A stretch of 59,523 bases of DNA from Acidimicrobiaceae bacterium. GTDB taxonomy: Bacteria; Actinomycetota; Acidimicrobiia; Acidimicrobiales; RAAP-2. Position numbers and translations under genes: made by a program. Location of the stretch: positions 1 through 59,523 of the forward strand of contig DAHUZE010000050.1 in NCBI GenBank assembly GCA_027306755.1, in the 5' to 3' direction. Shown piece after piece: positions 34,711-49,263 of the stretch (the stretch's first letter is position 1; each line of letters begins with the position of its first letter). The notes under the pieces are model-generated. The model saw only the letters and a list, made by a program, of their open reading frames with translations. It did not search any database and was not told the origin of the DNA.

Positions 34711-35525
34711 GCCGGCACCTCCATCGCCTCGAGGGCGGCCAGCGCCCGGTGCAGGGACCCGATCGACGAGAAGGTGCTCTTGCGCAGCATCGCTTCGGGG
34801 AGCTCCACGTCGAACGCGTCCTCGAGGGCGAGCATCACGTTCACGCTGGCGTGAGAGGTCATCCCCGCCTGGAACAGATCGTCGTCCTCGGACAGCGTGC
34901 TCACGTCCACGGGGAGCCTGGCGTGCTCGGCCAGCACATCCCGGATCCGCTCGCTGAGCTGGCTGGTCGTGGTCATCTCTGTCGTCCTCCCCTTGCTGTG
35001 GGTTCGAGCGCGGTCCTCGGAGGCCTCGCCGGGCCAGCGGTGGCCGGGAACGGGCGTGTCGCACAGTGCGGCCACGGCGATAGCGGGCGTGTCGCACAGT
35101 GCGGCCACGACGGCAACGGCAACACCGGCTTCGTGGCTGAGGCTGACGCTCATCGCTCCGATCCCGCGCCGTGCGGCCATGGCGGCTGCCCGGCGGTGCA
35201 GCCGGATCCGGCACCCGCCGCTCGGTTGACGCACGACCTCCATGTCCACCCATTGCGGACGGGCGGCGGCGGGCTCGAGGATCTTCAGGACCGCCTCCTT
35301 GGCGGCGAACCGGGCGGCAAGCGACGCGGCAGCCCCGGCCGCGTGGTTGCCGCCCCGGCTGCTGGCGATCTCGGCTTCGGTGAAGATCCGGCGGAGGTAG
35401 CGGTCCCCGAAGGCGCGGCAGGACGCGGCCACGTCGTCCACCGACGCCAGGTCCACGCCGACGCGCACGGTCCGTCCCTCCCAGCTGCTCGTCGACGCGG
35501 GCACGGCCTCGGGAAGCTCAGCCAT
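34707..35525 (-). CDS. Holo-ACP synthase fused in frame to an aminoacyl carrier protein
   Basis: One uninterrupted 272-codon frame. Residues 15-145 are an AcpS-type 4'-phosphopantetheinyl transferase (VGVDLASVDDVA, FTEAEIASSRGG, RFAAKEAVLKIL, SVSLSHEAGVAVAVVAAL). Residues 184-272 are an 89-aa carrier protein with the attachment site GMTSHASVNVMLALE (Ser224 here, Ser41 of the carrier), the TSHAS variant of DSL typical of carriers used by amino acid:CP ligases. The linker holds a duplicated VAALCDTP unit (33-bp direct repeat, 35051-35109). A GGGGAGGA site 9 nt before the internal ATG at 34976 suggests that free carrier is also made. ATG 35525 overlaps the flippase stop by 8 bp. Confidence 0.85.
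   Translation of the reverse strand: MAELPEAVPASTSSWEGRTVRVGVDLASVDDVAASCRAFGDRYLRRIFTEAEIASSRGGNHAAGAAASLAARFAAKEAVLKILEPAAARPQWVDMEVVRQPSGGCRIRLHRRAAAMAARRGIGAMSVSLSHEAGVAVAVVAALCDTPAIAVAALCDTPVPGHRWPGEASEDRARTHSKGRTTEMTTTSQLSERIRDVLAEHARLPVDVSTLSEDDDLFQAGMTSHASVNVMLALEDAFDVELPEAMLRKSTFSSIGSLHRALAALEAMEVPA
34986..34993 (-). promoter_or_regulatory. Internal ribosome binding site for free carrier protein
   Basis: GGGGAGGA lies on the - strand with 9 nt to the in-frame ATG at 34976, which opens the carrier domain (MTTTSQLSERI). It is among the strongest Shine-Dalgarno matches in the window and would be needless if only the fusion were made. Confidence 0.6.
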
Positions 35526-37872
35526 CGAGCGCCTCCACAACCTGGCGGACCAGCGCATCGGCGTCCCGGTCGCACGGCAGGGGAACGACCTCGCGCACCG
35601 ACCGGACGGCCCATGGCGCCTGCGGCGCAATGGACCGGGATGCGCTGGCGCGCCTGGCAGCCGCTTCCAGATGGGCGGCCACCTCGCACCCTCCGTCATC
35701 GCCGATGCACGGCGTGGCGACCACAAAGGTGGATGGCCCGACCCGTGCGACCAGGTCGTCGAACCGGAGCTCGCTCTGGAGCTCCGCCGCGACCGCCGCC
35801 AGCACGTCCTCGGACGGCACCGGGCCCGTACCGCCTGCCCGGGCCAGGCGGATCGCGACGACCGCCAGGGACCAGCCGGCGCCACGCGTGGCCCCCAGGA
35901 CCCGACCCACCTTGCCCAGGAGCACCGCTGCCGACGGGAGCCCGGTCACGGGGTCACGATCCGACAGGAGCGCGGCGACGAGATCCCGCCCCGGCGCCCG
36001 CCCCCCCGGGAGAGGAAGGGCTCCGGCGGCGCGCAGCCCGGCGAGGTTCTGGCGCGGTACGACGGATCCTCCCGTCTCGCCGGGCAGCGAGCCCAGCGAC
36101 ACCCTGCGGTCGGCGATCCTCGGGTCCGTGGGATCGACGACGGTCCCGGCCTCCTGCCGCCACGCCCGGAAGGGCGGGTAGAGGGAGGGCGGGGCGTACC
36201 CGTTGAGGCGTGAGCCGTTGAGGCGTGAGCCGTTGGCCGCCATCTCAGGCCCTCCCGCCTCGAAGGCCGCCACCACGACGACCATCCGGGCCGGGGCGGC
36301 CGGCACGTTCCTGGCCCCTGCGGCATCGGTCCGAGGGGCCGCGGTCGGAGCGGCATCGGTCCGAGGGGCCGCGGTCGGAGCATCCGCCGGCGGCCCACTG
36401 GCTCGCCGGGCGACGGTCGCCCGTGCCACCGAGGCCAGGTGCCCGATCTCCGACCGCACCGACGGCACCGCGAGCAGCGCCAAAGGGGGCACGACCAGGA
36501 GCAGCGACCACGGCATGGGCGTCACGGCGATGAACATCGGCGGCAGCAGCGCGGCCAACGGGAGGACCAGGCGCCGGTACCTGATGGCCGCCAGTCTGTG
36601 CGCCGCCCGGTGCGTGTAGGCCGTCGAGCTCACCGCCAGGACGCTGGCCACGCCGAACCCGGCGATGCCCAGCTGCCGGATCAGCACCAGCGATCCGGCG
36701 GTGACGATCGCCACCTCGATGGTGGCCGTGACCGCCGGGGCGAGGTTCTGTCCGTAGGCGTAGAGCAGGGTCCGTTGGACCGAGACCGGCACGCGCAGCG
36801 TCGCCCAAACCGCCAGCAGCACGTACACCGGAAGCGCCGGGAGCCACGCCCGGCCGAACACCGCCGGCACCGCCCAGTGGGCGACCACTCCGAAGGCGGC
36901 AAACGGCACCGCGGCCGCCACCATGAGCAGCAGCGTGCCCTCCTCGAGCGCGCTGGACAGGCGCCCGGGACGGTCCTTGCCCGCCTGGGAGATCGCCACC
37001 AGCCCGATGCGGTGGACGCCCCGATCGGTGAAGTTCAGCGTGCCGACCAGACGCTGGGCGAAGTTCACCAGCCCGACGCCCACCGTCCCGGCGTAGGTCC
37101 CGACGATCATCGTCAGGATCGCCGAGCGCGCCCCGCCCACCCATGTGGTGATGGCGTAGGTCCTGCCGTGCACGAACAGCTCCGACGCCGTGCGGCGCGA
37201 CCATGCGATCCTCGGCCACAATCCCGACAGGGCCATGCTCCCCACCAGCAGCCAGGTCTGCCATGCGAAGAACCCGGCGATCAGAGCCCAGGGGCCCGCC
37301 CCGACCATCGCCAGCGGGAGCGCCGTCGCGTAGAGCGCCACGTCGCCCCCGAGCTCGAGCAGGCCCATCCGCCGGTAGGCGAAGCTCCGCTCGATGCACG
37401 CCTGCATGGGAGCCCACAGGACGTTGACGGGCACGCTCAGCAGCAGGATGCGCATGGGGACGACCACCCCGTGGGGTCGCAGCCACGGTGCGACGGCAAA
37501 GGAGAGCCCCATTCCCACGGCCACCACCACCAGCGAGCTGCCCAGCAGCACCGTGAACACCTCGTCGTACCGGCGGCGGGGCAGTGGCCCCGGTTGCCGG
37601 ACGAGGAAGACCTCGGCTCCCATCTGGGCCAGCGCGGTGGCGAACAGGACGTAGGCCGCAGCCCCGCTGTAGATCCCGAAGTCCCCCGGCCCGATCCGGC
37701 GCATCACCAGCACAAGGCCGGCCAGTCGGATGCCCAGCCCGATCGCTTCGCGCCCGGCCAGGTAGGCGCCGCTGCGGAGCGCCACGTCCCGCAACGTGCG
37801 TCCGGCGGTCTCCGAGGCCGGCCCCGGGCTGGTACCCGGTGCAGCGGCAGTCCGACCTCGCGCGGCGGCCAT
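35518..37872 (-). CDS. Wzx-type polysaccharide flippase fused to a degenerate GGDEF domain
   Basis: A 784-aa protein. Residues of about 30-480 are a 12-14-TM MOP-superfamily flippase (AYLAGREAIGLGIRLAGLV, RRIGPGDFGIYSGAAAYV, NFAQRLVGTLNFTDRGVHRI) expected to move undecaprenyl-linked EPS units across the membrane. A cytoplasmic linker with 30-bp and 15-bp tandem duplications (about 495-565) leads to a C-terminal domain at about 640-784 with DPVTGLPS and LRFDDLVARVGPSTFVV. This is the diguanylate-cyclase fold with GGDEF replaced by GPSTF (712-716), so it cannot make c-di-GMP but may sense it or pair with another GGDEF protein. ATG 37872 lies 9 bp after the preceding stop. Confidence 0.85.
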   Translation of the reverse strand: MAAARGRTAAAPGTSPGPASETAGRTLRDVALRSGAYLAGREAIGLGIRLAGLVLVMRRIGPGDFGIYSGAAAYVLFATALAQMGAEVFLVRQPGPLPRRRYDEVFTVLLGSSLVVVAVGMGLSFAVAPWLRPHGVVVPMRILLLSVPVNVLWAPMQACIERSFAYRRMGLLELGGDVALYATALPLAMVGAGPWALIAGFFAWQTWLLVGSMALSGLWPRIAWSRRTASELFVHGRTYAITTWVGGARSAILTMIVGTYAGTVGVGLVNFAQRLVGTLNFTDRGVHRIGLVAISQAGKDRPGRLSSALEEGTLLLMVAAAVPFAAFGVVAHWAVPAVFGRAWLPALPVYVLLAVWATLRVPVSVQRTLLYAYGQNLAPAVTATIEVAIVTAGSLVLIRQLGIAGFGVASVLAVSSTAYTHRAAHRLAAIRYRRLVLPLAALLPPMFIAVTPMPWSLLLVVPPLALLAVPSVRSEIGHLASVARATVARRASGPPADAPTAAPRTDAAPTAAPRTDAAGARNVPAAPARMVVVVAAFEAGGPEMAANGSRLNGSRLNGYAPPSLYPPFRAWRQEAGTVVDPTDPRIADRRVSLGSLPGETGGSVVPRQNLAGLRAAGALPLPGGRAPGRDLVAALLSDRDPVTGLPSAAVLLGKVGRVLGATRGAGWSLAVVAIRLARAGGTGPVPSEDVLAAVAAELQSELRFDDLVARVGPSTFVVATPCIGDDGGCEVAAHLEAAARRASASRSIAPQAPWAVRSVREVVPLPCDRDADALVRQVVEALDG

Positions 37873-37880
37873 CGGCCGCG

Positions 37881-38975
37881 TCAGCGCGCACGGAGCTTCA
37901 CCACCGCGGCGCGGAGGAGCTCATCGGCCTCGTGCCCGCCGTTCAAGGGGGCGACGACATGGGCGGACCGCACCCTGAGCTGCGGGTCGGACTCCACGGC
38001 GGCGCGCACGAGACCGGCGAGGTGATCCTCGACCTTGGATGCGTTGGCAGCCCCCGGGGCCAGCGGGATCACCGCCACGAAGGACAGCGCGCCGATGCGT
38101 GCCACGGGGTCGTCGAACCGCAAGCCCCGCCGGAGGGCCTGCGTGACCTCCGCCACCACGTGCTCCCCGCGGGTTGCGGGGCCGTCCACGGCAAGGGCGA
38201 CGACCGCCAGCTCACCGCTCAACGCCGTGCCCGCACCCAGCAGCCGCCCGGCCCGTCCGAGGAGCGTCCCGAGCGGCACGAGACCGGCCACCTCCGGCTC
38301 TTCGGTGAGAAGTGCCCGGAACGTGTCCCCGTCCGCGACGCCCACCGGACCCTCGGGCTGGGACGGGCGGCCGGCGGGTGCCGGCTGTGCGCCGCCGGGA
38401 CGCGTCCGGATTGTCCGGCTTGACCGCGGCACGCCGATGGTGCCCGCCGGCGGCGGGAAGGGTGGCGGGGCGGGAGGCAGCACCTCAGCGGCCGGGCGGT
38501 CACCCGGCGCCGCCGGCTGGACCCGGAGCTCGGCGCGGACCACCTGGCGGGCCTGGACGTACGAGTTGAGCCGCTGGGCGACGCGGGCCAGCAGCTCGAG
38601 CTCGGCCATCCCGAACGCAGCCACCATGGGGTCGGCCACACCAAGGACGCCCGAAGGATGGCCCTGCGCCGTCATCCCCAGAGGCACGGCCGCAACGGCC
38701 AGGCGGAGGAGCGGTTCGCCCGGCTGCCCCGTGTCGAGCTGGACGGTGCGCAAGAGGGACTTTCCCTGCGCGAGCCCGGGATCGGACCACAGCTGGCGCA
38801 CCAGGCCTTCCACCTCGGCTGCGTCGAGCCCGTCCGGCTCGCTGGCGGACGGATAGGTTGCGGTGGCAAACGTCTGGGGGCCGGCGGCCAGGGCCACGAA
38901 TGCAACCGCGCTCTGGCACCCGGTCCTCGCCATCCGCAGGAGGTTGCTCGTACCGCCGCTCAGATTGTCTGGCAT
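37881..38975 (-). CDS. GAF-like plus degenerate GGDEF protein, first gene of EPS operon A
   Basis: A 364-aa cytoplasmic protein. Residues of about 10-170 look like a GAF sensor domain (SAVAFVALAAGPQTF, LRLAVAAVPLG, GVLGVADPMVAAFGMAELELLARVAQRL). After a proline-rich linker, residues 225-364 match the degenerate cyclase domain of the next gene (LRFDDPVARIGALSFVAV against LRFDDLVARVGPSTFVVA); the GGDEF site is GALSF at 295-299. The two proteins are therefore paired relatives that may heterodimerise. ATG 38975 is preferred for GAGGGA upstream; GTG 39011 is an alternative. Expressed from the SARP-type promoter at 39047-39089. Confidence 0.75.
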   Translation of the reverse strand: MPDNLSGGTSNLLRMARTGCQSAVAFVALAAGPQTFATATYPSASEPDGLDAAEVEGLVRQLWSDPGLAQGKSLLRTVQLDTGQPGEPLLRLAVAAVPLGMTAQGHPSGVLGVADPMVAAFGMAELELLARVAQRLNSYVQARQVVRAELRVQPAAPGDRPAAEVLPPAPPPFPPPAGTIGVPRSSRTIRTRPGGAQPAPAGRPSQPEGPVGVADGDTFRALLTEEPEVAGLVPLGTLLGRAGRLLGAGTALSGELAVVALAVDGPATRGEHVVAEVTQALRRGLRFDDPVARIGALSFVAVIPLAPGAANASKVEDHLAGLVRAAVESDPQLRVRSAHVVAPLNGGHEADELLRAAVVKLRAR

Positions 38976-39046
38976 CCTCGCCCGTTCCCTCGGTCCCTTG
39001 GTCGGCCACACGGCGCCCCGTCGGCGCCCGCTCGACCGTCGCCATC

Positions 39047-39089
39047 ACGGTACGGACTGCACGTCCCAGCCCCGTCTGTGGCGCGTCCC
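39047..39089 (-). promoter_or_regulatory. SARP-type promoter of EPS operon A
   Basis: Reading the - strand: heptamers GGGACGC (39089-39083), CAGACGG (39078-39072) and GGGACGT (39067-39061) repeat every 11 bp; 8 bp later comes the -10 box TACCGT (39052-39047) inside CCGTACCGT. A start near 39040 leaves about 65 nt before the ATG at 38975. The whole block GCTGGGAC-N7-CCGTACCGT is identical to that of operon B. Confidence 0.65.
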
Positions 39090-39103
39090 ACCCCGCCCGC
39101 TTC

Positions 39104-40237
39104 CTACCGTCGTGTGACGGATCTGGCGGCGGACGCGGCGACTGGCGGCGCCTTTGGCGCCAGCGCGCGTCCCAGTGCCGCCTCGGCCGCCGGGAAGCCT
39201 GCGCCCGTAATGGCCCAGTTTCCGTAGTCCCACAAGATGCTGATCCGGACGTGCTCGGCCCTCTCCCAGCTCAGCAGGTGGGCCACGAAGGCGGGGTCGT
39301 CCCCGCCGCCTCCTGTGCTCGCCGGTACGACGCCCCACATCGCCACTGCAAGCGGCCGGCGGACGGACCGGGCGAAGGACGCGGCCCATGCCGGCCCGCC
39401 GCGCTGTCCCAGCAGCGACCCCCAGCGTGTGGCGGCTGCCGATCGGCGAGGTGTGGACCGGTCGAAGACGACGGCGCCGATCAGGTCGACAGCCGAGGAG
39501 CCGGGGTACATGGCCGCCGGGCTCACGGGCGAGGTGTCGCCCCCGACCACCCACTCGAAGGTGAAGTGCGCACCGGAGACCGCCCCCATCACCTGGTGGA
39601 TGTGGTCCCAGAACTGGACGTAGGAGCGAGCCGCCGCCGCAGTGGCCACGTACCACGGCTGGGCGGCGTCGGCCGGATCCCACCCGATCATGAGCACCGC
39701 CGAGCTGAGCCCGTCCTGGACGAGACGCTGGGCCAGCAGGCTGAACTGACCGTCGTAGACGCCCGTGGCGCCGGCGGCCAGCGTGGCGCCGGTGGTCGGC
39801 AGCATCGGCACCCCGACGACCAGTTGGAAGGGACCCCCCCTCCACTGGGCGGACAGCCAGCTCGGATCGGTGATCGTGGTCCACGACGACCCGGACAGGA
39901 AGTCCAGCGCATAGCGGAATCCGTCGCTCAGCGCCTGGTCGGCGGCGACCGCCCCGCTGAGGGCGCCAGGGCCGGCATAGACCCCGGTGACGGGGGTGGC
40001 GGCGGCTGTCGTCGGTGCTGACGTGGCGGCCGGCGGCGAGCCGCCGCCCGGCGAGCCGCCGGCATGGCGCTCCGTGGTCGTGGTGGATCCGGCCGCGTCC
40101 CTGGCCGGCGCTGTCCCCGCTCCAGGGCGGGACAGCGCGACGGTCCAGGCGGCAACCACGAGCACCGCCAGCAAGACCAGCGCGATCCAGGCGGCAGCCC
40201 GGCGACGGCGGGTGCGGCGGGTCCCGCGGCGCCTCAT
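39104..40237 (-). CDS. Membrane-anchored GH26-like protein lacking catalytic glutamates
   Basis: A 377-aa protein with a basic N-terminus, one TM (16-35, signal anchor), a Ser/Thr/Gly-rich stalk (40-85) and an extracellular domain resembling the GH26 (beta-mannanase) group: FQLVVGVPML, an IGWDP motif (184-188) where family members read IGWE, and PLAVAMWGVVP at 295-305 where they read a PEWG motif, followed by GGGGDDPAFVAHLL as in relatives. Both catalytic glutamates thus appear replaced (Asp187, Met300), suggesting a polymer-binding rather than cleaving role. Last gene of operon B, overlapping the Wzy gene by 4 bp. Confidence 0.65.
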   Translation of the reverse strand: MRRRGTRRTRRRRAAAWIALVLLAVLVVAAWTVALSRPGAGTAPARDAAGSTTTTERHAGGSPGGGSPPAATSAPTTAAATPVTGVYAGPGALSGAVAADQALSDGFRYALDFLSGSSWTTITDPSWLSAQWRGGPFQLVVGVPMLPTTGATLAAGATGVYDGQFSLLAQRLVQDGLSSAVLMIGWDPADAAQPWYVATAAAARSYVQFWDHIHQVMGAVSGAHFTFEWVVGGDTSPVSPAAMYPGSSAVDLIGAVVFDRSTPRRSAAATRWGSLLGQRGGPAWAASFARSVRRPLAVAMWGVVPASTGGGGDDPAFVAHLLSWERAEHVRISILWDYGNWAITGAGFPAAEAALGRALAPKAPPVAASAARSVTRR

Positions 40238-41835
40238 CCCACGGCCCCCGCGCCCAACCGCACGCGCCCCAACCCGCCGGAGAGCACGAAGAGCCGCCGG
40301 TCACCCAGGACCGCCGACGGCTCGTCCGCCCTGACGACCCCCGGTACGGTGACCGCCATCAGCGCCCAGAGCATCTGGGGCATCCCCCCATTGCTGAGAA
40401 AGGGCCACATCGAGCTCATCACGAGGAGCGAGACCGTGGAGGCCGCGGTCGCCAGGCCCAGTGCCCGCTCCAGCCGGTCCGAGGACTTCGCCGCCTGCAG
40501 GGATCCCCGGAGCATCGCCACGGCGAGGCCGCCGAACATCAGCAGCATCGGGACGCCGCCCTCCACGAGGAACGAGATGTACTGGGACTCGGGGTACTGC
40601 CACTGCACCGATGGGGGCAGCACGACGCCGTAACCGGTCAGCGGGCGGGCGCCGATCGCCGGCAGGTACTGCCTGGTCCACACCGACCAGCGGAAGCTCA
40701 CGGTGTTGGGCACCCACGAGACGCGACCGGTGCCGGCCCCGCCCCCCAGCTCCCGGGCCAGCCGCTCGATGAGCACCGGACTCACGGCAACGGCCACGGC
40801 GGCAACGGCCAGCAACAGCCAGCGCGTCAGGCGGCCGTCGGTGTCGTAGCGCCGGGCCAGGATCAGCATGCTGACGATCAGGCACACGATGGCCGACTGC
40901 TCGACGGTGAGGGCGAGGGCCAGCCCGCACAGGATCCCGGTCACCAGGAACCAGCGGCGCCTGCGCACCTCCACCTTGGCGAACCACATCGTGACCAGGA
41001 CGAGCAGCACGGGGAGCAGGTAGCCGGCGAGCGCGGCCCAGTTTCCGAACGGGCCGGTCACCCGCTGCAGCGCCCCGGCTGTTGCTCCGGTGCCCGGTGT
41101 GAGCCCCCCCGTGATCTTGGCGATGAACGACGTGACGGCCGACACGCCCGTCTTCTGCACGAGCGCGAGCAGGGTCACCGGGATGGTGGCGAAGAGCAGC
41201 GCCGCCACCACCAGCCGGCGTTCCCCACTCGTCCGGACAGCCTGGCGGATGCCCCGGTAGACGAGGAAGAACTGGAGCTGCCCGAAGACGGTCCCCCACT
41301 GGTCCAGGACCAGATGCTCGTGGAGGGTCACCTCGGAGTAGGCGCCGAAGGCTGCCCAGCACAGCCCGTAGGCGAGCAGCACCCAGTCGAGCAATCCCCA
41401 CGGGACGGCGTCCTGGCGCCGGACGAAGACGATCAACGTGAGGCCGATCCCCCCGATGATCAGCTCCGAGAGCCGGATGTGGGGGATGGGGAACCCGCTC
41501 GCCAACCCCGAGGTCATTGGGACCAGCGTGGCGAGCATCACCGCGCCGATGATCGGCCAGAGCAGCACCAGGCCCACGCCTGCGGCGGCGATGACCAGCG
41601 CGACGGCGTCCTTGGGCTTGGACACGCCGAGGAACCCGGCGGCAAACGCCACGGTGGCCGCCGCCAGGGCGATGAGGACCGGTCGGGGCTGCCGCCCGAG
41701 CCATCCCGATCGCTCCGGTTCGGCCCGTGGGCGAGCCTGGGCTACGAACCGCCCGCCGGCCGGCAGCGCCGCAGCGCGGCGCGGGCTCCCGGGCCGGCTC
41801 GAGCCGGCGACCGCCGGAACGTCAGTCGGAGCCAT
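40234..41835 (-). CDS. Wzy-like O-antigen/EPS polymerase (O-antigen ligase family)
   Basis: A 533-aa polytopic membrane protein with about 12 TMs starting near residue 50. The pattern LLDWVLLAYGLCWAAFGAY, the long external loop with RWSVWTRQYLPAIGARPLTGYG and the following QYPESQYISFLVEGGVPMLL is characteristic of Wzy/WaaL-family proteins, which join lipid-linked repeat units outside the membrane; the arginine and SQYISFLVEGG region is the usual active part. ATG 41835 overlaps the Wzz-like gene by 14 bp. With flippase and copolymerase nearby, this is a complete Wzx/Wzy assembly set. Confidence 0.85.
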   Translation of the reverse strand: MAPTDVPAVAGSSRPGSPRRAAALPAGGRFVAQARPRAEPERSGWLGRQPRPVLIALAAATVAFAAGFLGVSKPKDAVALVIAAAGVGLVLLWPIIGAVMLATLVPMTSGLASGFPIPHIRLSELIIGGIGLTLIVFVRRQDAVPWGLLDWVLLAYGLCWAAFGAYSEVTLHEHLVLDQWGTVFGQLQFFLVYRGIRQAVRTSGERRLVVAALLFATIPVTLLALVQKTGVSAVTSFIAKITGGLTPGTGATAGALQRVTGPFGNWAALAGYLLPVLLVLVTMWFAKVEVRRRRWFLVTGILCGLALALTVEQSAIVCLIVSMLILARRYDTDGRLTRWLLLAVAAVAVAVSPVLIERLARELGGGAGTGRVSWVPNTVSFRWSVWTRQYLPAIGARPLTGYGVVLPPSVQWQYPESQYISFLVEGGVPMLLMFGGLAVAMLRGSLQAAKSSDRLERALGLATAASTVSLLVMSSMWPFLSNGGMPQMLWALMAVTVPGVVRADEPSAVLGDRRLFVLSGGLGRVRLGAGAVG

Positions 41836-43552
41836 CGGTGACCGGCATCACGTCCGCCGGCACCAGGACCGCCCACACCGGCTCACGGTCGAGCAGCCGC
41901 AGGCGCTCGGCCGCCTCCGCAACCACCCGCGCCCGCTCCCCGGCCCCGACCACGAGGATGATCTGGCCCGCGCCGTCGCTCAGCGCCTCGGGCGCCACCT
42001 CGAAGGTGGTGCCGACCGCCATCCCGCCCCTGCCCTGCAGGGGCCACGCCGCGCCGAGGTCCCGCGCCAGGTCCTGGGCGACCCGTTCTTGTGCCCGGCG
42101 GAGCGGCACGACCGTCACCGGCTCCTCCCCGGCCCGGGAGACGGCCCGTGCAAGCTCGGTGGTCGAGATCCCGCCGGGGATCATGGTCGCCGAGCACCCG
42201 GCTGCAGCGCTGAGTGCATCGAGGTCGTCAACCCGGCGGTCGGCGCGTTCGGCCAGCAGCGCGCCGGCCCCGCCGACGACCAGGCCGAGCAGGGTCCCCA
42301 TGGGCAGCCCGTACTTGCGCAGCGAGCCGCTCCGGCTCGCCGTGTGCGGGGTGGAAACGAGCGAGATGGACCCGCGCGCGATGGCCGGTCCCGGCGACGC
42401 GGCCGCGGTGAGCACCCGGGCGACGTCGTTGGCCCCGGCCAGAGCGGCTGCAGGGCTCGGCGCCGAGAAGTGGACGTCGAGCAACGACGTGCCGGCAACG
42501 GCCTGGACGTTGATCTGCCCGGCCACGCTCGACGCAGGGACGCCGGTCAGGTTGCCCACCCGCTGGAGGAGCGACTGGTCGTCGGGGATGAGGGCTGCGT
42601 AGGTGACGGCCAGCACCTCGGCGCCGTTGGCGCTGGCGGCAACCGATGTGGAGGCGCCGGACTTGACCTCGAACACCGAGGTCGCGCTGTAGGTGGTCCC
42701 GCCGCGCCCGCCGGCCACGAATCCTCCGAGCGCTCCGGCGATCACCCCGGCCACGATGATCCACACGCGCCGACGGGCCCACGCCCACCGCTGCCCCGCC
42801 TCTGCCGACGGCTCGGGACCCGAGGGCGCGCCCGGACGGCGCCACCGCCGGGACTCCTCGGGCGGCGGAGGCGGCTGCTGCCCGTGGGCGCTCCCGTACC
42901 CGGCCGGCGCCGCCGGCCAGAGTGCGGGTGGCGGGGCGGGGACCAGCGAGGTCCGTCCCGGAACCGGGCCCGCTCCTGGGGGCGTTGAGGACGGCTGGCG
43001 GTAGCCGGAGGGAACCTCCGGAGCAACCGCCGGCGCCACGGGGATGGGGATGGGGATGGGATCCGTGGCGACCGGCGGCAGCCCCGTAAGGGCCCCGTGG
43101 GGCGAATGGCTAAGCGTTGGAGGCAGGGCGACGGCGCCCGAGGGCGCCCCCCGGGTTGCGGGGGCCCACATCAGGGTGTGGATGCACGTCCGGCTGCCCC
43201 GGATGGAGCAGGCCGACTCGGCGACGGTGCCGGGGGTCCCGAACGCGGCGCGCGGGAGCGCCTCGAGCCAGGCGCCGACGAGCGCGCACGACTGCGCGGC
43301 GTCGAGCGACCCGCCAGGGCCACTCCGCACCACGAGCGTGTCCCGCCGTGCCCGTACGACCTCGACGGCCATGCCCAGGGACCGCAATCGCGGAACCGCG
43401 GCTCGGGCCATGGCCTCGACGGGGTTCGCCGACGACGCCACCGCCGGGCTCAGCGCCTCGGCGGCAACCTGCCGGCCCGCGGCCTGGGCGGCTTCCAGGC
43501 TCCTCGGCTCGTGCACTGCGGAGCCGGGGTGCTGCGCTGGGGTCAGGGTCAT
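41822..43552 (-). CDS. Wzz-like chain-length copolymerase with N-terminal sensor-like domain
   Basis: A 576-aa protein. The C-terminal half is a polysaccharide copolymerase: TM1 at 263-281, an external domain starting YSATSVFEVKS (about 289-410) with DVHFSAPSP, TM2 at 415-434, then a cytoplasmic domain without a recognisable Walker motif. The N-terminal 130 residues are unexpected: CALVGAWLEALPRAAFG and ESACSIRGSRTCIHTLMW (Cys89, 115, 123) resemble the end of a V4R-type small-molecule or metal sensor usually found on regulators. A proline-rich linker (158-235) joins the parts. ATG 43552 overlaps the GGDEF gene stop. Confidence 0.75.
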   Translation of the reverse strand: MTLTPAQHPGSAVHEPRSLEAAQAAGRQVAAEALSPAVASSANPVEAMARAAVPRLRSLGMAVEVVRARRDTLVVRSGPGGSLDAAQSCALVGAWLEALPRAAFGTPGTVAESACSIRGSRTCIHTLMWAPATRGAPSGAVALPPTLSHSPHGALTGLPPVATDPIPIPIPVAPAVAPEVPSGYRQPSSTPPGAGPVPGRTSLVPAPPPALWPAAPAGYGSAHGQQPPPPPEESRRWRRPGAPSGPEPSAEAGQRWAWARRRVWIIVAGVIAGALGGFVAGGRGGTTYSATSVFEVKSGASTSVAASANGAEVLAVTYAALIPDDQSLLQRVGNLTGVPASSVAGQINVQAVAGTSLLDVHFSAPSPAAALAGANDVARVLTAAASPGPAIARGSISLVSTPHTASRSGSLRKYGLPMGTLLGLVVGGAGALLAERADRRVDDLDALSAAAGCSATMIPGGISTTELARAVSRAGEEPVTVVPLRRAQERVAQDLARDLGAAWPLQGRGGMAVGTTFEVAPEALSDGAGQIILVVGAGERARVVAEAAERLRLLDREPVWAVLVPADVMPVTDGSD

Positions 43553-45267
43553 CGCACAGCCTCCTGCGCCTCGGCCCGCCGCCGGTTCTTGTGGTCGTAC
43601 ATCTCGCGGTCGGCCCGCGTGATGAGGGAGTCGGGCGACTCGTCACCCGATGAGGTGCTGACCCACCCGACCGAAACGCCGATGTCGAGCACCAGGTCGC
43701 CGAACCGGTACGGCGCCGAGAGGACCTTTCGGAGCCGGGCCACCACGGCGTCGCCGTCGGACAAGCGGGACTCGGTCACGTGCGCCACGACGAATTCGTC
43801 GCCCCCCAGGCGTGCCACGACGTCCTCGCCGCGCACGGCCCGCTCGAGGCGTCGGGCGACCGCACGCAGCACCTCGTCACCGGTGTCGTGCCCGTGCTCG
43901 TCGTTGATCTCCTTGAACCGGTCCAGGTCCAGGTAGATCAGGGACACAAACCCTCCCCGCCGGGTGAGCCCGTCAAGCATGCGCCGCAACGCGTCGATGA
44001 GCAGGTACCGGTTGGCAACCCCGGTCAGCGGATCGTGGAGGGCGTAGTGCGTCAAGTGCGCCTGGCGCTCCCGTTCCGCCGTCACGTCTCGGAGCACGGC
44101 GATCGCACCGTCGCCGCCGTCAACCCGCAGGGGGTGCGACGAGACCGACACGTAGCGGCGGACGTCGTCGTCCACGAGCAGGAACTCTGTGGTGACCGGG
44201 ACGTCGTCGAGCATCGAGCGCACCACGGGGTGCTCGTCCACGCTGAGGGCGTGTCCTTCGACGGTCTGCAGTCGGACCCGCGCCGGCAGTGGGGCGCCCA
44301 CCTGCAGCTCGTCGTCGGAGAGCCCTTGCAGGCGGCGCGCAGCCCGGTTGGCGACCACGACCGTCCCGCGGGCGTCGCAGCAGATGATGCCGTCTTCGAT
44401 GTGGTCGAGCAGCGCCTGGATCCCTCCCTGCGCCCCCTGCGCCGACTCTGCGGAGCCTCCCGGGTGCCCGGGACGCACCAGGGTGATGAAGCAGTCTCCG
44501 GCGAACCGGCTCTCGACTCTGCGGCCGACGGCGTTCAAGAGCGCCGCTGGGTCCGCCCCGGCGACGTGGACGCCCCGGCCGGAGCCCGCGGCACCGAGGA
44601 GCTGCTCGACGAGCGCGCCGTGATCTCCAGCACCAGGGGTCCCCGGCGCCGGCACCAGCAGTCGGGTCGCGTCCTCGCCCAAGACGGTGTCCATGGGGAG
44701 CCCGGTGAGGTCGGAGAAGGTCTGGTTGACCAGGACGATCGTCCCGTCGCTGCGGGCCACCACCAGCCCGTCGGGAAGGTGGTCGAGCAGCTCGCCGACG
44801 AACGGCTCACCGCCCGGCGCCGTCCGCTGGGCGCCCGCATCAGGTCCGGCGGCCTGACCGGCCGGAGCCGCCGGTGCGCCCTCGACCGAGGCCGCCAGCG
44901 CCAGCAGCCCGGACCGCTGCTCCTCGTCCAGCTCGGGGAGCCATACGTCCACCACGCCGAGGAGCCCCGTCCACCGCCCCTGGTGCCAGACCGGCGCCAC
45001 CACGCACGCCAGCGACCACTCAGGTGAGGCGGCCGACAGGTCGTCTGTGGACTCGGCGCTCCAGAACAGCCCTTGGCCCCGCGCTGCGGGGTGACTGAGG
45101 CAGCTCCGGGCGAGCGCGTGCACGCGCTCCTCGGCGTCGTCGGGGCGCATGACGTCGGACACGTCCGCGGTCACCGCCCCGGCGGCTGTCACGAAGAACG
45201 CACCCACCCCGAGGCAGAGGTCGCGGGCTAGTCGGAGCGTCTCATCCATAGGCCTGTTCGTTGGCAC
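43549..45267 (-). CDS. Diguanylate cyclase: GAF-like, PAS, PAS, intact GGDEF
   Basis: A 572-aa soluble protein: GAF-like domain (about 10-130), PAS-type domains (about 155-265 with DGTIVLVNQTFSDLTGLP, and 285-400 with DARGTVVVANRAARRLQGLS), then a GGDEF domain from about 410 (DPLTGVANRYLLIDAL). The active site GGDEF is intact at 488-492, so it should make c-di-GMP from two GTP. An inhibitory RxxD five residues upstream is not present (DVVARLGG). First gene of operon B, ahead of the Wzz, Wzy and GH26-like genes. GTG 45267 lies 7 nt after a TACCGT box, implying a leaderless mRNA; an ATG six codons later is an alternative. Confidence 0.9.
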   Translation of the reverse strand: MPTNRPMDETLRLARDLCLGVGAFFVTAAGAVTADVSDVMRPDDAEERVHALARSCLSHPAARGQGLFWSAESTDDLSAASPEWSLACVVAPVWHQGRWTGLLGVVDVWLPELDEEQRSGLLALAASVEGAPAAPAGQAAGPDAGAQRTAPGGEPFVGELLDHLPDGLVVARSDGTIVLVNQTFSDLTGLPMDTVLGEDATRLLVPAPGTPGAGDHGALVEQLLGAAGSGRGVHVAGADPAALLNAVGRRVESRFAGDCFITLVRPGHPGGSAESAQGAQGGIQALLDHIEDGIICCDARGTVVVANRAARRLQGLSDDELQVGAPLPARVRLQTVEGHALSVDEHPVVRSMLDDVPVTTEFLLVDDDVRRYVSVSSHPLRVDGGDGAIAVLRDVTAERERQAHLTHYALHDPLTGVANRYLLIDALRRMLDGLTRRGGFVSLIYLDLDRFKEINDEHGHDTGDEVLRAVARRLERAVRGEDVVARLGGDEFVVAHVTESRLSDGDAVVARLRKVLSAPYRFGDLVLDIGVSVGWVSTSSGDESPDSLITRADREMYDHKNRRRAEAQEAVR

Positions 45268-45274
45268 GGCTCCG

Positions 45275-45306
45275 ACGGTACGGCGGCCCGGTCCCAGCAG
45301 CGTCCC
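45275..45306 (-). promoter_or_regulatory. SARP-type leaderless promoter of EPS operon B
   Basis: On the - strand: heptamers GGGACGC (45306-45300) and GGGACCG (45295-45289) are 11 bp apart, and 8 bp separate the second from TACCGT (45280-45275). Seven nt later is the GTG start (45267). GCTGGGAC-N7-CCGTACCGT matches operon A's promoter base for base at all 17 fixed positions. Confidence 0.65.
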
Positions 45307-45368
45307 ACGGTCGCAGGGACCGGATCGTGCTGATCGCCACGCGTCCCGGCCGCGTCCACCCGACCCCT

Positions 45369-45407
45369 AGGACACTCGGCAGACGGGCCCTCCGTACCGT
45401 GACCGCC
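45369..45407 (+). promoter_or_regulatory. SARP-type leaderless promoter of EPS operon C
   Basis: On the + strand: heptamers AGGACAC (45369-45375) and CAGACGG (45380-45386) are 11 bp apart; 8 bp later is TACCGT (45395-45400) within CCGTACCGT, and 7 nt later the ATG at 45408. CAGACGG is identical to the middle heptamer of operon A's promoter. Divergent from the operon B promoter within a 140-bp spacer. Confidence 0.6.
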
Positions 45408-45674
45408 ATGGTGATCTCCTACGTCGTGCGGCTACGGCCCGATGCCCTGGCGGACGGCCGGTTCGTTGGCGAAGTGGAGGCGGTCACGAGCCGGCAACGA
45501 ACGCGCATCCGCACGTTGGAGCAACTGGCGGCCTTCATCCTGGCCACGATGCCGACCCAGGTCAGTTCGAGCTCTGCCGCCCGGCAGCTGGCGACCGAGG
45601 AGGACGGCAGCGCCGGCGGGCTTAGCGCCGGCGGGCTCAGCGCCACCGAGCTCATCGGAGGTCAGGACTGGTGA
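45408..45674 (+). CDS. Small hypothetical protein ahead of the EPS initiating transferase
   Basis: An 88-aa soluble protein with a compact first half (MVISYVVRLRPDALADGRF then VGEVEAVTSRQRTRIRTLEQLAAFILATM) that looks like a strand-helix fold, and a Ser/Ala/Gly-rich tail with a repeated SAGGL. No family recognised. The ATG sits 7 nt after a TACCGT box (leaderless). Its stop overlaps the next gene's GTG (GTGA), so it is translationally coupled to the initiating glycosyltransferase and may modulate it; that role is inferred from position only. Confidence 0.7.
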   Translation: MVISYVVRLRPDALADGRFVGEVEAVTSRQRTRIRTLEQLAAFILATMPTQVSSSSAARQLATEEDGSAGGLSAGGLSATELIGGQDW

Positions 45675-47218
45675 GCACGCTCCCCGTTCCCCCGATCATC
45701 GTCACACCCTCCCGCGCCGACGCCGCGAGCCTCGGCCGCGACGGCACGGTCGGCGCCGGGTACCTGGCCGGAACTGCCCGCGCCGGACGGCGGCGGCTGG
45801 CGCTCGTGTTCGCCGCCGGGGACGCCGTCGGCCTCGGCGCGGCGGCCACCGTGCTCGCTCTGGCCGGACCCTGGCACGCGACCGCGCACGCCCCGCTCGG
45901 CCGGGTGGCCGCCGGGTTCCTGGCCGCCGTCGCAGTGCTGGCCGTCCTCGCCATCAAGGGGCTGTACCGGATCTCGGCGGGCAGGATCGCCCCCCGCGTG
46001 GCCGACGACGTGGGCGCGATCCTGGCGGCGCTGGCCACGGCCGGAGCCGTGCTGTTCGCGCTCGACGGCATCGGGACGCTGCGGGGCTGGGTGCCGCCTG
46101 CGGAGGTGGGCGGCCTCCTCGTGCTGGCGGCCGTCGCCATCCCCGCCGTCCGGGAGCTCGCGCTGGCCATCGCGGCGCGCCACCCGGCCAATGTGCAGCG
46201 CGTGGTGATCGTGGGGGGAGGGTTCGTCGCCTCCTACCTCACAGCCCGCCTGTCCCGGTCCAGATTGGTCGACGTGCTCGGAATCGTGGACGACACAGCC
46301 TTCGCCGGTCGCCGCCGCCTGGGCTCCATGGCCGAGCTCCCCAGGATCTGCGCTGCCCACGAGGTCGACCGCATCGTGGTGGCCTTCTCGGGGCGGCACC
46401 CGGCCAAGAGCGCCTCGGTGCTGCAGGCAGTGCGGGGGCTCGTCGAGATCGACGTCGTCGTCCGGTACTTCGAGCTGGCGAGCTGGGAGAGCCGCGTCTC
46501 CGACGTGACAGGGCTGGCCCTCCTCAACATCGGGCGCGAGCCGGGACGGGCGTCGCGTGCCGTCAAGCGCCTCGTGGACGTGGCGGTGGCGACCGTGCTC
46601 CTCGTCGCATTGAGCCCCCTGCTCGCCGTCACCGCATTGGCCGTCCGTCTCGAGTCGGGCGCGCCGGTCCTGTTCCGGCAGGTCCGGGTCGGCCGTGGCC
46701 GGCGGCAGTTCGAGATCCTCAAGTTCCGCTCCATGCGGTCGGCGCCGGGCGCCCATCCCGCGGCCCCGGCGGACCCCGGTGCCCCAAGGGACCCCGGTGC
46801 CCCAATGGACATGGCCCGTGCCTACCGGGACGCGGACACCTCCGATCCGGACGACCCCGGCCGGACGCCCCTGGACACCGAGCCCGACATCACCCGCGTG
46901 ACCCGGACGGGCGCGCTCCTGCGCCGCACCGGCATCGATGAGCTGCCGCAACTCCTCAACGTGCTGCGGGGGGACATGTCCCTCGTCGGCCCGAGGCCGT
47001 TCATTCCCGAGGAGTGCGCCAGCCTGCAGGGGACAGTCGAGCGCCGCTTCAACGTCCGTCCGGGGATGACCGGATTGTGGCAGGTGTGCGGGCAGCACGA
47101 AGTCGGCTTCGACGAGCTGTGTCGGCTCGACGTGCAGTACGCGACGTCGTGGTCCATCCGGGGAGACCTGCGGGTCCTGGCCCGGACCCCGGGACGGCTC
47201 GTGCGGGGAAGCCGGTGA
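45671..47218 (+). CDS. EPS initiating polyprenyl-phosphate sugar-phosphate transferase (WbaP/CpsE type)
   Basis: A 515-aa membrane enzyme that starts EPS synthesis by moving a sugar-1-phosphate (usually glucose or galactose) from UDP-sugar to undecaprenyl phosphate. N-terminal TMs (about 42-175), a CoA-binding-like Rossmann domain (NVQRVVIVGGGFVASYL), then the catalytic core: the re-entrant helix after AVKRLVDVAVATVLL, LFRQVRVGRGRRQFEILKFRSM, DELPQLLNVLRGDMSLVGPRP and RPGMTGLWQVCGQ. A loop of about 35 residues after KFRSM is longer than usual and contains a duplicated DPGAP unit (18-bp tandem duplication). GTG start coupled to the small upstream gene. Confidence 0.92.
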   Translation: MSTLPVPPIIVTPSRADAASLGRDGTVGAGYLAGTARAGRRRLALVFAAGDAVGLGAAATVLALAGPWHATAHAPLGRVAAGFLAAVAVLAVLAIKGLYRISAGRIAPRVADDVGAILAALATAGAVLFALDGIGTLRGWVPPAEVGGLLVLAAVAIPAVRELALAIAARHPANVQRVVIVGGGFVASYLTARLSRSRLVDVLGIVDDTAFAGRRRLGSMAELPRICAAHEVDRIVVAFSGRHPAKSASVLQAVRGLVEIDVVVRYFELASWESRVSDVTGLALLNIGREPGRASRAVKRLVDVAVATVLLVALSPLLAVTALAVRLESGAPVLFRQVRVGRGRRQFEILKFRSMRSAPGAHPAAPADPGAPRDPGAPMDMARAYRDADTSDPDDPGRTPLDTEPDITRVTRTGALLRRTGIDELPQLLNVLRGDMSLVGPRPFIPEECASLQGTVERRFNVRPGMTGLWQVCGQHEVGFDELCRLDVQYATSWSIRGDLRVLARTPGRLVRGSR

Positions 47219-47250
47219 CCTCCCTCGACTCCGGCCGACGCCAGGTGCGC

Positions 47251-48267
47251 TCAGCGGCGGCCGGCCGGTCCACCCCGGCTGCGGCGGGCCCACCCGCCCC
47301 AGCCGGCCTCCATCGCCCACCCGGCCTCCATCGCCGCCCGCTGCTCCTCCCAACGCCGCTCCTGGGCCCGGCGGGCTTCGGGGGCCGCGTCGCGCAGCGC
47401 GTCGTAGCGCTCGTCGGCCGCCCGGAGCGCGTCCGCGAGGGCTCCTCCCTCGTTCCGCGCGTACAGGGCGAAGGGGAACGCGTCCCGGCCGACCGGCCAG
47501 TCGCTGACCACGAGGGGACGCCCGGCCCACACCGCCTCGCAGGCGGCGCGCATCACCGAGGAGGGCTCGGTCGTGAGGCTCACGACGACGTCGCAGCCGT
47601 AGACGGCATCCCGGTAGCGGCTCTCGTCGAGAAAGCCCAGGAGCGTCACGTTGCCCGGCAGGCGGCCGGGCTCGAGCCCGGCAACCGCAGGGGGGTCCCC
47701 GGTCATCAGGACGTCCACGTCGGGGAGCTGGCGGGCGGCGTCCAGCACGGCCTCCCACGGCTCGTCGGAGGCGAAGCGCCCGACGTAGAGAGCTCGCAGG
47801 CGACCTCGGCGGCCGGTGGGCCGCAGCTGCCAGTCCCCCGGCGCCTCGTGGACGACGACGGCCCGGGCTCCCCAGGACTCGACGAGGGCTCTCCACGGCT
47901 CGGCGGCCACGATCGACAGGTCGGCTTTCCGGGTCACCCACCGGTGGACCTGCTGGAGCCTTGCGGCCACGCGGTCGCCTTGGGCTCCGAAGGCACCAGG
48001 GTGGCTGTCGAGGACCACCCGGGCGCCGACCAGCCGGCCGGCGGCCAGTCCCACCACGGCCGCCACGCTGGGCGGGTTGGTGACGACCACGACGTCCGGT
48101 CGCCGGCGCGCCACCTCCCAGACGGTGGCCCCGGCGCTGAGCGCCCACCGGACCAGCACCGGCGGGCGGCGGGTCCCGACCGGGAACAAGCAGCGGGCGT
48201 CCCCGCCGAGGGCCGCCGCCAGCTCCCGGGACCGGCCGCTGACCGCGCCCCACGCGACGAAGTAGAC
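47251..48267 (-). CDS. GT4-family glycosyltransferase, start codon unresolved
   Basis: About 338 aa of a GT-B glycosyltransferase: VYFVAWGAVSGRSRELA opens the acceptor domain, VVVVTNPPSVAAVV and DSHPGAFG follow, the donor domain has RLRALYVGRFASDEPWEAVLDA and the phosphate-binding CDVVVSLTTEPSSVMRAACEAVWAGRP. Homology begins at about 48267, where the codons read GGT-GTC-TAC; no ATG, GTG or TTG occurs in frame for over 100 bp upstream, until an ATG near 48400 inside the divergent gene. Either a rare start is used, or there is a small indel. The C-terminus holds a duplicated MEAGW unit. Confidence 0.75.
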   Translation of the reverse strand, partial: VYFVAWGAVSGRSRELAAALGGDARCLFPVGTRRPPVLVRWALSAGATVWEVARRRPDVVVVTNPPSVAAVVGLAAGRLVGARVVLDSHPGAFGAQGDRVAARLQQVHRWVTRKADLSIVAAEPWRALVESWGARAVVVHEAPGDWQLRPTGRRGRLRALYVGRFASDEPWEAVLDAARQLPDVDVLMTGDPPAVAGLEPGRLPGNVTLLGFLDESRYRDAVYGCDVVVSLTTEPSSVMRAACEAVWAGRPLVVSDWPVGRDAFPFALYARNEGGALADALRAADERYDALRDAAPEARRAQERRWEEQRAAMEAGWAMEAGWGGWARRSRGGPAGRR

Positions 48268-48291
48268 ACCCCCGGCCTGCCGACGGCCTCC

Positions 48292-49263
48292 GTGGTGGTG
48301 GCCACCGTCAACCGGGCGGACCGCCTGGAGACGCTGGTGGACACGGTGCTGGCCGACCCTGCCGCCCTCGAGATCGTGGTCGTGGTCGATGGCCCAGATC
48401 ATGCCTCTCTCGAGACCCTCCGGCAGCTGGCCGTGACGCGCCCCCGCCTCGTGGGGTTCGGCGTTCCTCGCGGCGGCCAGCTCCCCGCCCTGGACGCCGG
48501 CGTCCGGCGCGCCCGGGGTGACGTCGTCGTCCTGCTCGACGACGATGTGCTCCCGTTCCCCGGGACGATCGCCCGCCATGCCGCGCTCCACCGAGATGCC
48601 CGGCGTACGGTGGCGGTCGGGCCGATGCCCGTCGTCACCGGGGGGCCCGGCTCCAGCGTCGCCACCCGGCTCTACGCGGCCGCGTACCTCGGGCACGTGG
48701 ACAACATCTGCGGTCCGCACCGCGATGTGCTGGTGCCCCTGTGGGCCGGCAATCTCTCCCTGCGACGCGAGGACTGCATGCGAGTCGGCCTTGCCAGCTC
48801 CGAGTTCCGGGCCAACTTCCATCAGGACAGGGATCTCGGGTACCGCTTCGCGGACGCCGGGCTCGTCGGCCTGTTCGATCCGGACCTGCGGGCCGGGCAC
48901 CACCACCGCCGGAGCGACGAGCAATTCCTCGCCGACGCCGCCCGGCAGGGAGAGGGCCTCGTCGCCCTGCACAGGGTCCATCCCCACCGGCTGGGCCCCT
49001 TCCGGCTGCGCTCGGTGGCCGACGGGCTGTCCCCCGTGCTCCGGATCGCCGTCGCAGCGTGCGGGGCGACCCCCCTGGCACGGCAGCTCGCCCGGGGGTT
49101 CCTGGCCGTCGGGCGGCAGTGGGAAGCCACGCTTCCGGGCTTCGGGGACCCGCTGGCACCAGCCCGGCTCGCCCGGCGGATCATGCAGTGGCGCGGGGCG
49201 CAGCGGGCACTCGCCGTACCGGGGGGGAGTCCAGGAGGTATTCCCCGGCGTCCGCCGCGGTGA
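48292..49263 (+). CDS. GT2-family glycosyltransferase
   Basis: About 323 aa of an inverting GT-A enzyme: VVVATVNRADRLETLVDTVL at the start, the DXD-type loop VVVLLDDDVLPFPG, AGNLSLRREDCMRVG, and the acceptor-side LGYRFADAGLVGLFDPDL (ED-like motif with Asp). One of three consecutive GVG valines (GTG at 48292) is taken as the start, because no other start codon is near; a few upstream residues may be missing. Its 3' end overlaps the convergent gene at 49181 by 83 bp. Faces the previous glycosyltransferase head to head with about 24 bp between coding parts. Confidence 0.75.
   Translation: MVVATVNRADRLETLVDTVLADPAALEIVVVVDGPDHASLETLRQLAVTRPRLVGFGVPRGGQLPALDAGVRRARGDVVVLLDDDVLPFPGTIARHAALHRDARRTVAVGPMPVVTGGPGSSVATRLYAAAYLGHVDNICGPHRDVLVPLWAGNLSLRREDCMRVGLASSEFRANFHQDRDLGYRFADAGLVGLFDPDLRAGHHHRRSDEQFLADAARQGEGLVALHRVHPHRLGPFRLRSVADGLSPVLRIAVAACGATPLARQLARGFLAVGRQWEATLPGFGDPLAPARLARRIMQWRGAQRALAVPGGSPGGIPRRPPR

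Follow-up and report, generated by a model that had tools for sequence, protein, structure and literature searches.

A stretch of 59,523 nt from an Acidimicrobiaceae bacterium (hereafter the window; contig C97 of a 2.55-Mb genome assembly in 108 contigs, 82% complete) carries three neighboring operons, named A, B and C, and a gene encoding a large protein with a SARP module; the promoters of these operons and their probable control by this protein are described here. Genes were called from open frames and third-position GC. Operon B starts with a PAS-GGDEF diguanylate cyclase (DGC) gene at 43549..45267 (-) (Pfam GGDEF, E = 4.2e-38), in whose translation the GGDEF motif is intact, and continues at 39104..43552 (-) with B2 (a weak chain-length-determinant match), B3 (Wzy_C) and B4, which has no known function (Pfam, third-position GC). 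The first gene of operon A, A1 (37881..39011, -; start at GTG 39011 or, alternatively, ATG 38975), encodes a protein with a weak GAF-like N-terminus and a weak degenerate GGDEF match, both below the curated Pfam cut-off. Judging from the tight gene spacing, operon A probably extends through 28978..37872 (-), where a Polysacc_synt_3 flippase, an acyl-CoA dehydrogenase-like protein, a protein without assignment, a DUF1839 protein and a GH2-like protein are encoded. Operon C (45408..49263, +) encodes the small protein C1, an exopolysaccharide (EPS) polyprenyl glycosylphosphotransferase (Bac_transf) and a GT2 glycosyltransferase (Pfam, third-position GC). Based on the gene families of A, B and C, the product of the locus is presumably an exopolysaccharide.

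The promoter/operator of operon A (39047..39089, -) occupies the gap that separates the start of A1 from the end of operon B (39104). It comprises the heptamers GGGACGC (39083-39089), CAGACGG (39072-39078) and GGGACGT (39061-39067), followed after 8 bp by TACCGT (39047-39052), all on the minus strand. The promoter/operator of operon B (45275..45306, -) contains GGGACGC (45300-45306) and GGGACCG (45289-45295), then 8 bp to TACCGT (45275-45280) and 7 nt more to the GTG at 45267. The promoter/operator of operon C (45369..45400, +) contains AGGACAC (45369-45375) and CAGACGG (45380-45386), then 8 bp to TACCGT (45395-45400) and 7 nt more to the ATG at 45408. All three were recovered by pattern, chance test, spacing test and matrix. 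The initial annotation had described these promoters as RRGACNN heptamers with an 11-bp period and 8 bp to TACCGT, three at A and two each at B and C. The counts, the period and the 8-bp gap held on inspection, but the formula fits only five of the seven heptamers, since both CAGACGG heptamers depart from it, and the corrected formula is NRGACNN. The search pattern built literally on RRGACNN was consequently rejected, as it finds B alone. A and B do share GCTGGGAC-N7-CCGTACCGT, with 17 fixed positions as claimed, and GAC-N7-CCGTACCGT is common to A, B and C. The repeat consensus is about RGACGNTCGTG, and the spacer sequences differ among the three sites. The 11-bp/8-bp geometry also agrees with that described for SARP promoters (PMC10936776, PMC7040171), whose targets are reported to carry direct repeats at 11 or 22 bp and, between the 3' repeat and the -10 element, a distance of 8 bp (PMC10936776); at the sequence level, A, B, C and the sites of relatives show this repeat and spacing.

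The genome-wide search suggested in the initial annotation was carried out with the corrected motif, RGAC-N7-RGAC-N10-TANNNT, and its matches clustered exactly on the three operons: three matches were found in the genome, namely A, B and C, against one match for the reversed pattern. Within the window, three matches were seen where 0.02 were expected from dinucleotide shuffling, and none of 100 shuffles reached three. Three matches per genome are unremarkable by count alone, and we do not use the number as evidence, because the reversed-pattern control gave 62 matches in 61 genomes (1.02 per genome); what is noteworthy is that all three matches precede the starts of three neighboring operons. 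When CCGTACCGT was fixed, the genome contained three matches with no mismatch, none with one or two mismatches and 27 with three, the latter being about the control level (36 in all for the reversed pattern). With TACCGT fixed and periods of 8-14 bp combined with gaps of 5-12 bp (7 x 8 combinations), only the 11/8 combination was present in the window.

For an independent check, a matrix was trained on 22 sites from outside the genus of the window. The top scores in the window were those of B (26.8), C (26.0) and A (20.3), followed after a gap of 12 bits by 8.0 at 38270, a score so low that no autoregulatory site is indicated before the regulator gene. In a leave-one-genome-out analysis, all 37 sites scored between 18.2 and 35.5, with a grouping that does not cleanly separate near-identical relatives (the B-site is identical in L037 and L038). 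None of 2.1 million scoring windows in 63 control loci, whose base composition differs, reached 15. In the relatives' own loci (545 kb), only four further windows scored at least 15: the A1 sites of G003 (24.6) and G018 (18.1), the weak A1 site of L039 (17.0) and a G018 site at 26.3 that is not assigned to a gene. The matrix runs used all 37 sites, whereas a site profile was built from 30 of them, after C_L107, B_L036, B_L040, C_L036, C_L040 and A_L036 had been left out (31 remaining) and then the identical L038 B-site.

Conservation was analyzed in 73 loci that were fetched by the window DGC protein, blind to the motif. The ten best (L031-L040) were taken as the orthologous loci; they come from metagenome-assembled genomes (Actinomycetes, Actinobacteria and Acidimicrobiaceae bacteria), and five of them coincide with contigs of the genome set: L031 with G008, L032 with G007, L033 with G024, L037 with G018 and L039 with G044. 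In all ten, the motif was found upstream of the DGC gene, and the regulator or part of it was encoded on the same contig, beside its presumed target genes as in the window. These loci contained 21 motif matches in 0.18 Mb, compared with one match in 1.06 Mb for the other 63 loci, which are mostly GGDEF or PAS-GGDEF matches. Counting the window, L031-L040 and six loci fetched through pattern matches, of which only L031-L040 are motif-blind, 17/17 upstream regions of DGC genes carried a site, as did 10/11 of those of C1, the eleventh (L107) being weak. Upstream of A1, eight sites were recovered by pattern (a count of what the pattern recovers, not of every A1 gene) and two more, those of G003 and G018, by matrix; the A1 site of L033 is degenerate, and a profile match with E = 0.055 was found at A1 of G007 among the matches listed. 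These counts are of loci and not of independent events, given the near-duplicates L034/L036 and L038/L040.

The site was also retained in minimal loci where only the regulator, the DGC and A1 were recognized (G001, G004, G007, G008, G012 and G044), and the same repeats were retained where the DGC proteins share only about 42% identity. Across 61 genomes, the RGAC-type pattern was present in 27, and single matches mean little in view of the reversed control. Within the family, however, many matches resembled one another, and G003, G018, G023 and G024 have divergent pairs like that at B/C, separated by 74-95 bp. The expectation that relatives keeping the locus would also keep the motif was thus largely borne out, but not in every distant one, G078 being without a clear site.

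The regulator gene (50233..53673, -) has an uncertain start, its open frame extending to 53808. In the 1191-residue frame, Pfam placed AAA_16 at residues 77-219 and BTAD at 1046-1187, and these matches and the predicted fold point to an N-terminal ATPase part and a C-terminal winged helix plus BTAD, the SARP module lying within 50236-50991. The initial annotation had assigned a SARP module to this gene, in agreement with the BTAD match (3.3e-14) and with a predicted fold like those of AfsR and EmbR. The C-terminal 252 residues were modeled with AlphaFold2 from 14 sequences (pLDDT 88), and the six best matches of this model in the PDB were chains of AfsR (initiation complexes) and EmbR; when the whole frame was searched with phmmer, no PDB chain matched at E 0.01. 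The recognition-helix region VGxRRLRNVLWRxR was constant in 14 orthologues, and since the DNA would be read by this helix, its invariance fits an invariant operator. In the middle part of the protein, Pfam gave no repeat family at E 0.001. The SARP module is not N-terminal here, unlike in characterized SARPs, which usually carry it at the N-terminus. An N-terminal position does not appear to be strictly required, because GSU1771 of Geobacter sulfurreducens has been described as a SARP-family protein whose SARP-family region is C-terminal (PMC10599522).

Co-occurrence of motif and regulator was analyzed in 37 genomes of the family, in which the best match above 240 bits was taken as the regulator orthologue. 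Eleven genomes carried one, and the pattern matched in 11/11 carriers versus 7/26 non-carriers (Fisher p 3.7e-5); among the seven matching non-carriers, only G023 has a divergent B/C pair. With the site profile (150 candidates scored per genome), 22 of the matches listed were under E 0.001, in ten carriers and G023, a result that is partly circular. G009, G010, G011, G029 and G035 have distant regulator matches only, and among the matches listed none of them had a profile match below 0.03. In the carrier G019, a C-site of 24.4 with one imperfect heptamer and a B-site of 18.0 were found by matrix. DGC paralogues that lie beside an A1-like gene with no regulator adjacent (L137 in G000:C102 of the present genome, and in relatives L138 in G002:C9 and L139 in G009:C113) had a window above 12 in none of the three stretches, and so the site does not simply accompany this type of DGC.

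A survey of 397 genomes of the order found the regulator at E 1e-60 in six. The strict form GGACG-N6-GGAC-N8-CGTACNNT was present in 3/6 carriers (G000, G068 and G117) versus 2/391 other genomes (G212 and G349). Four carriers belong to other families (G409, G117, G068 and G078), and none of them had been used to define the motif; by matrix, the C-site was clear in three and the B-site in one. A-, B- and C-type sites scored 22.5, 20.0 and 23.8 in G409, with one imperfect heptamer each in A and C, and the C-sites of G117 and G068 scored 26.1 and 20.6. In one genome of the family, G006, a second regulator orthologue accompanies the complete one on C109 (L110), in the form of pieces that run off the ends of C12 (L108) and C18 (L109) and may be one gene; a site on C18 (leave-genome-out 18.2) lies upstream of the regulator fragment, and its ATG is out of frame with the fragment.

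Several of these observations weigh against a single regulator reading all the sites. By matrix, G117 has no B-site, the B-site of G068 is weak (15.5) and G078 has the regulator and no clear site (best 15.3). In five minimal loci in which A1 follows the DGC gene (L031, L032, L114-L116), no clear A1 site was seen by eye. Conversely, G023 has strong sites with no regulator in the assembly, its contig stopping inside operon C, and strong motifs were found in G349:C55 (29.5; L136 902, -) and G212:C375 (27.3; L135 6026, +), where tblastn with window proteins found no regulator on the 7-8 kb contigs and neither genome has one at E 1e-60. G014, which lacks the regulator, did slightly better in the profile search (E 0.0047, in a match not covering the -10 part) than the carrier G019 (E 0.0053). 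Moreover, the regulator and the DGC are linked, so that co-occurrence alone cannot fully separate the two, and further sites may be missing from a genome that is 82% complete.

One alternative is that another protein reads the motif, either the marginal second BTAD protein of the genome (G000:C74; 22.6 bits, cut-off 22.1, the only BTAD match besides the regulator) or a regulator that takes over the -35 contact in a comparable manner, for instance a WYL-type one like PafBC, for which a similar sigma adaptation has been described (PMC10936776), and that the SARP gene is a mere neighbor. The motif matches in G349, G212 and G023 without a detected regulator are in favor of this explanation. We nevertheless consider it unlikely, given that the SARP gene was near the motif on the same contig in all ten blind loci, including the minimal ones with regulator, DGC and A1, and that tandem heptamers at 11 bp, 8 bp from the -10 element, are described as a SARP signature (PMC7040171, PMC5930380, PMC10936776). 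Based on the sequence evidence, the common-regulator interpretation of the initial annotation is supported: with good though not full confidence, A, B and C can be regarded as operators of one cluster-situated SARP-domain activator, encoded at 50233-53673, that would govern a regulon of EPS and cyclic di-GMP (c-di-GMP) genes.

At a 17-bp distance upstream of their -10 boxes, A, B and C have hexamers that agree with TTGACA in only 0-1 of six positions, as expected for activator-dependent promoters. In 17/17 B-sites, an ATG or GTG follows TANNNT after 6-7 nt, and in 10/11 C-sites after 6-8 nt, the GTG at 6 nt in L107 not being matched to a C1 start; A-sites have a leader, without a start codon in that position. 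B and C therefore look like leaderless promoters, and A is not one. If transcription at C started at the A of the ATG, the repeats would span about -39 to -18. AfsR occupies -40 to -19 as a side-by-side dimer; it touches sigma region 4 and so offsets a poor -35 element (PMC10936776). By analogy with AfsR at afsS, two (at A perhaps three) C-terminal SARP modules would sit side by side on the 11-bp direct repeats, take the place of the absent -35 element and bring RNA polymerase to the -10 box, TANNNT. This would jointly switch on the diguanylate cyclase, the GAF/degenerate-GGDEF protein and the genes for EPS polymerization, export and priming, with leaderless mRNAs from B and C, and the N-terminal ATPase part would presumably gate the activator through a signal. 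What the sequence shows is the sites, how isolated they are in this genome, that they are conserved, that they co-occur with the regulator, and a predicted SARP fold; binding, activation, the start sites and this gating are what we infer.

The opposite sign, that the regulator binds the repeats yet represses the operons, finds some precedent in Geobacter, in which GSU1771 affects biofilm and several DGC genes: its loss is reported to give thicker biofilms, and six DGC genes were changed in that study, one up and five down (PMC10599522). We regard repression as improbable, for the operators are displaced by no more than about 1-2 bp from the AfsR box position (-40 to -19), which is an activating one (PMC10936776), and the promoters are without a -35 hexamer, so that basal activity should be low. 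Hardly credible is the remaining alternative, that no common regulator exists and that a leaderless -10 context and recent copying of promoter segments inside the locus account for the likeness: the 17 fixed positions common to A and B and the TACCGT identical in all three would suit it, but the spacers differ, the repeats persist even at a DGC protein identity of only about 42%, the other promoters of the genome lack the pattern, and conservation covers repeats and spacing beyond the -10 element alone.

Activation by the SARP-domain protein would place two proteins of c-di-GMP type first among the products of the switch, the diguanylate cyclase of operon B and the GAF/degenerate-GGDEF protein of operon A, and this order suggests a link between the output of the regulator and c-di-GMP. 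A more far-reaching scenario, which we put forward only tentatively and with considerable doubt, is that a reversed-order SARP, with the ATPase first and the DNA-binding module last, governs a self-contained EPS switch built from leaderless promoters. Since the regulator, the DGC and A1 occur together without adjacent EPS genes in several relatives, its core role in this scenario would be c-di-GMP output; EPS operons would have joined by gaining the 11-bp operator, and the degenerate GGDEF proteins, one of them fused to a flippase, would read the signal.

SARPs are known mainly as antibiotic-cluster switches in Streptomyces, and EmbR of Mycobacterium tuberculosis has a role in envelope polysaccharide genes. 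Among characterized systems, AfsR of Streptomyces coelicolor, acting at the afsS promoter, appears to have the same SARP fold as the modeled module (8k60 and 8hvr; Foldseek E 3e-10 to 2e-9, TM 0.75). Like the regulator described here, this large SARP has an additional ATPase part. The afsS promoter is described as having a poor -35 element and a pair of direct repeats of 11 bp that covers -40 to -19 (PMC10936776). AfsR differs in the N-terminal position of its SARP module, in the repeat and in its target, an antibiotic-regulatory gene instead of EPS and c-di-GMP genes. PimR and the SARP-LAL regulators likewise combine a SARP module with a large ATPase part; their operators are described as consisting of two or three heptamers separated by 4 bp, and at least two heptamers are needed for binding, so that operators with two or three heptamers are already known in SARPs (PMC5930380). 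The order of parts is reversed relative to SARP-LAL proteins. In PimR, the module is N-terminal, the heptamer is CGGCAAG, the target is a polyene regulator gene, and the main operator is described as not overlapping the -35 box (PMC5930380). EmbR, compared by description, shares the predicted winged helix plus BTAD fold (2ff4, 2fez) and differs in having an FHA domain after the module and, in that description, no ATPase part (PMC10936776). GSU1771, which resembles the regulator in its C-terminal SARP-family region, has an N-terminal receiver domain instead of the ATPase and belongs to another phylum (PMC10599522).

No account of this regulon was found in titles and abstract openings of the open-licence literature. 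Within the literature surveyed, and as far as these searches show, several features are new: the repeat itself, a regulon of EPS and c-di-GMP genes, the leaderless arrangement, an ATPase at the N-terminus with the order of parts thereby reversed, and the bacterial group. A SARP-type switch probably also runs polysaccharide production, and in an uncultured actinobacterial group a SARP that carries its DNA-binding module at the opposite end appears to own a small, sharply bounded EPS/c-di-GMP regulon. The operator seems specific enough for further regulon members to be predicted from sequence, and it offers a direct way to test how these bacteria control the production of polysaccharide.

Further features were observed in and around the locus. 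A glycosyltransferase (GT28-C / PssD-PssE / WelK-like by Pfam) is encoded between operon C and the regulator (49181..50164, -), and the matrix scan of the window gave it no operator of its own. The flippase of operon A (35518-37872, -) is extended at its C-terminus by a long stretch, where residues 683-744 give a weak, degenerate GGDEF match in which RVGPSTF replaces the GGDEF motif; a fusion to a c-di-GMP-type module is possible, and in L036 the corresponding GGDEF part is separate from the flippase. A search with Rfam at gathering score over 28000-59523 gave no match, and hence no RNA element in the A leader by that scan. An integrase-core (rve) protein is encoded at the contig end (58215-59516, -); its Pfam score of 32.6 bits equals the cut-off.

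Candidate sites were also seen elsewhere in relatives. In G018:C54 (L133 9798, -), a site of 16.9 lies upstream of a gene for a LuxR-type (GerE) regulator, and in G023:C176 (L134 9952, -), one of 25.0 precedes a gene for an FAD-NAD(P)-binding protein. A three-heptamer-like site in G003:C24 (22.5; L131 7251, -) precedes a gene for a GNAT acetyltransferase (Acetyltransf_6, 3.1e-23), which is possibly a distant member of the regulon.

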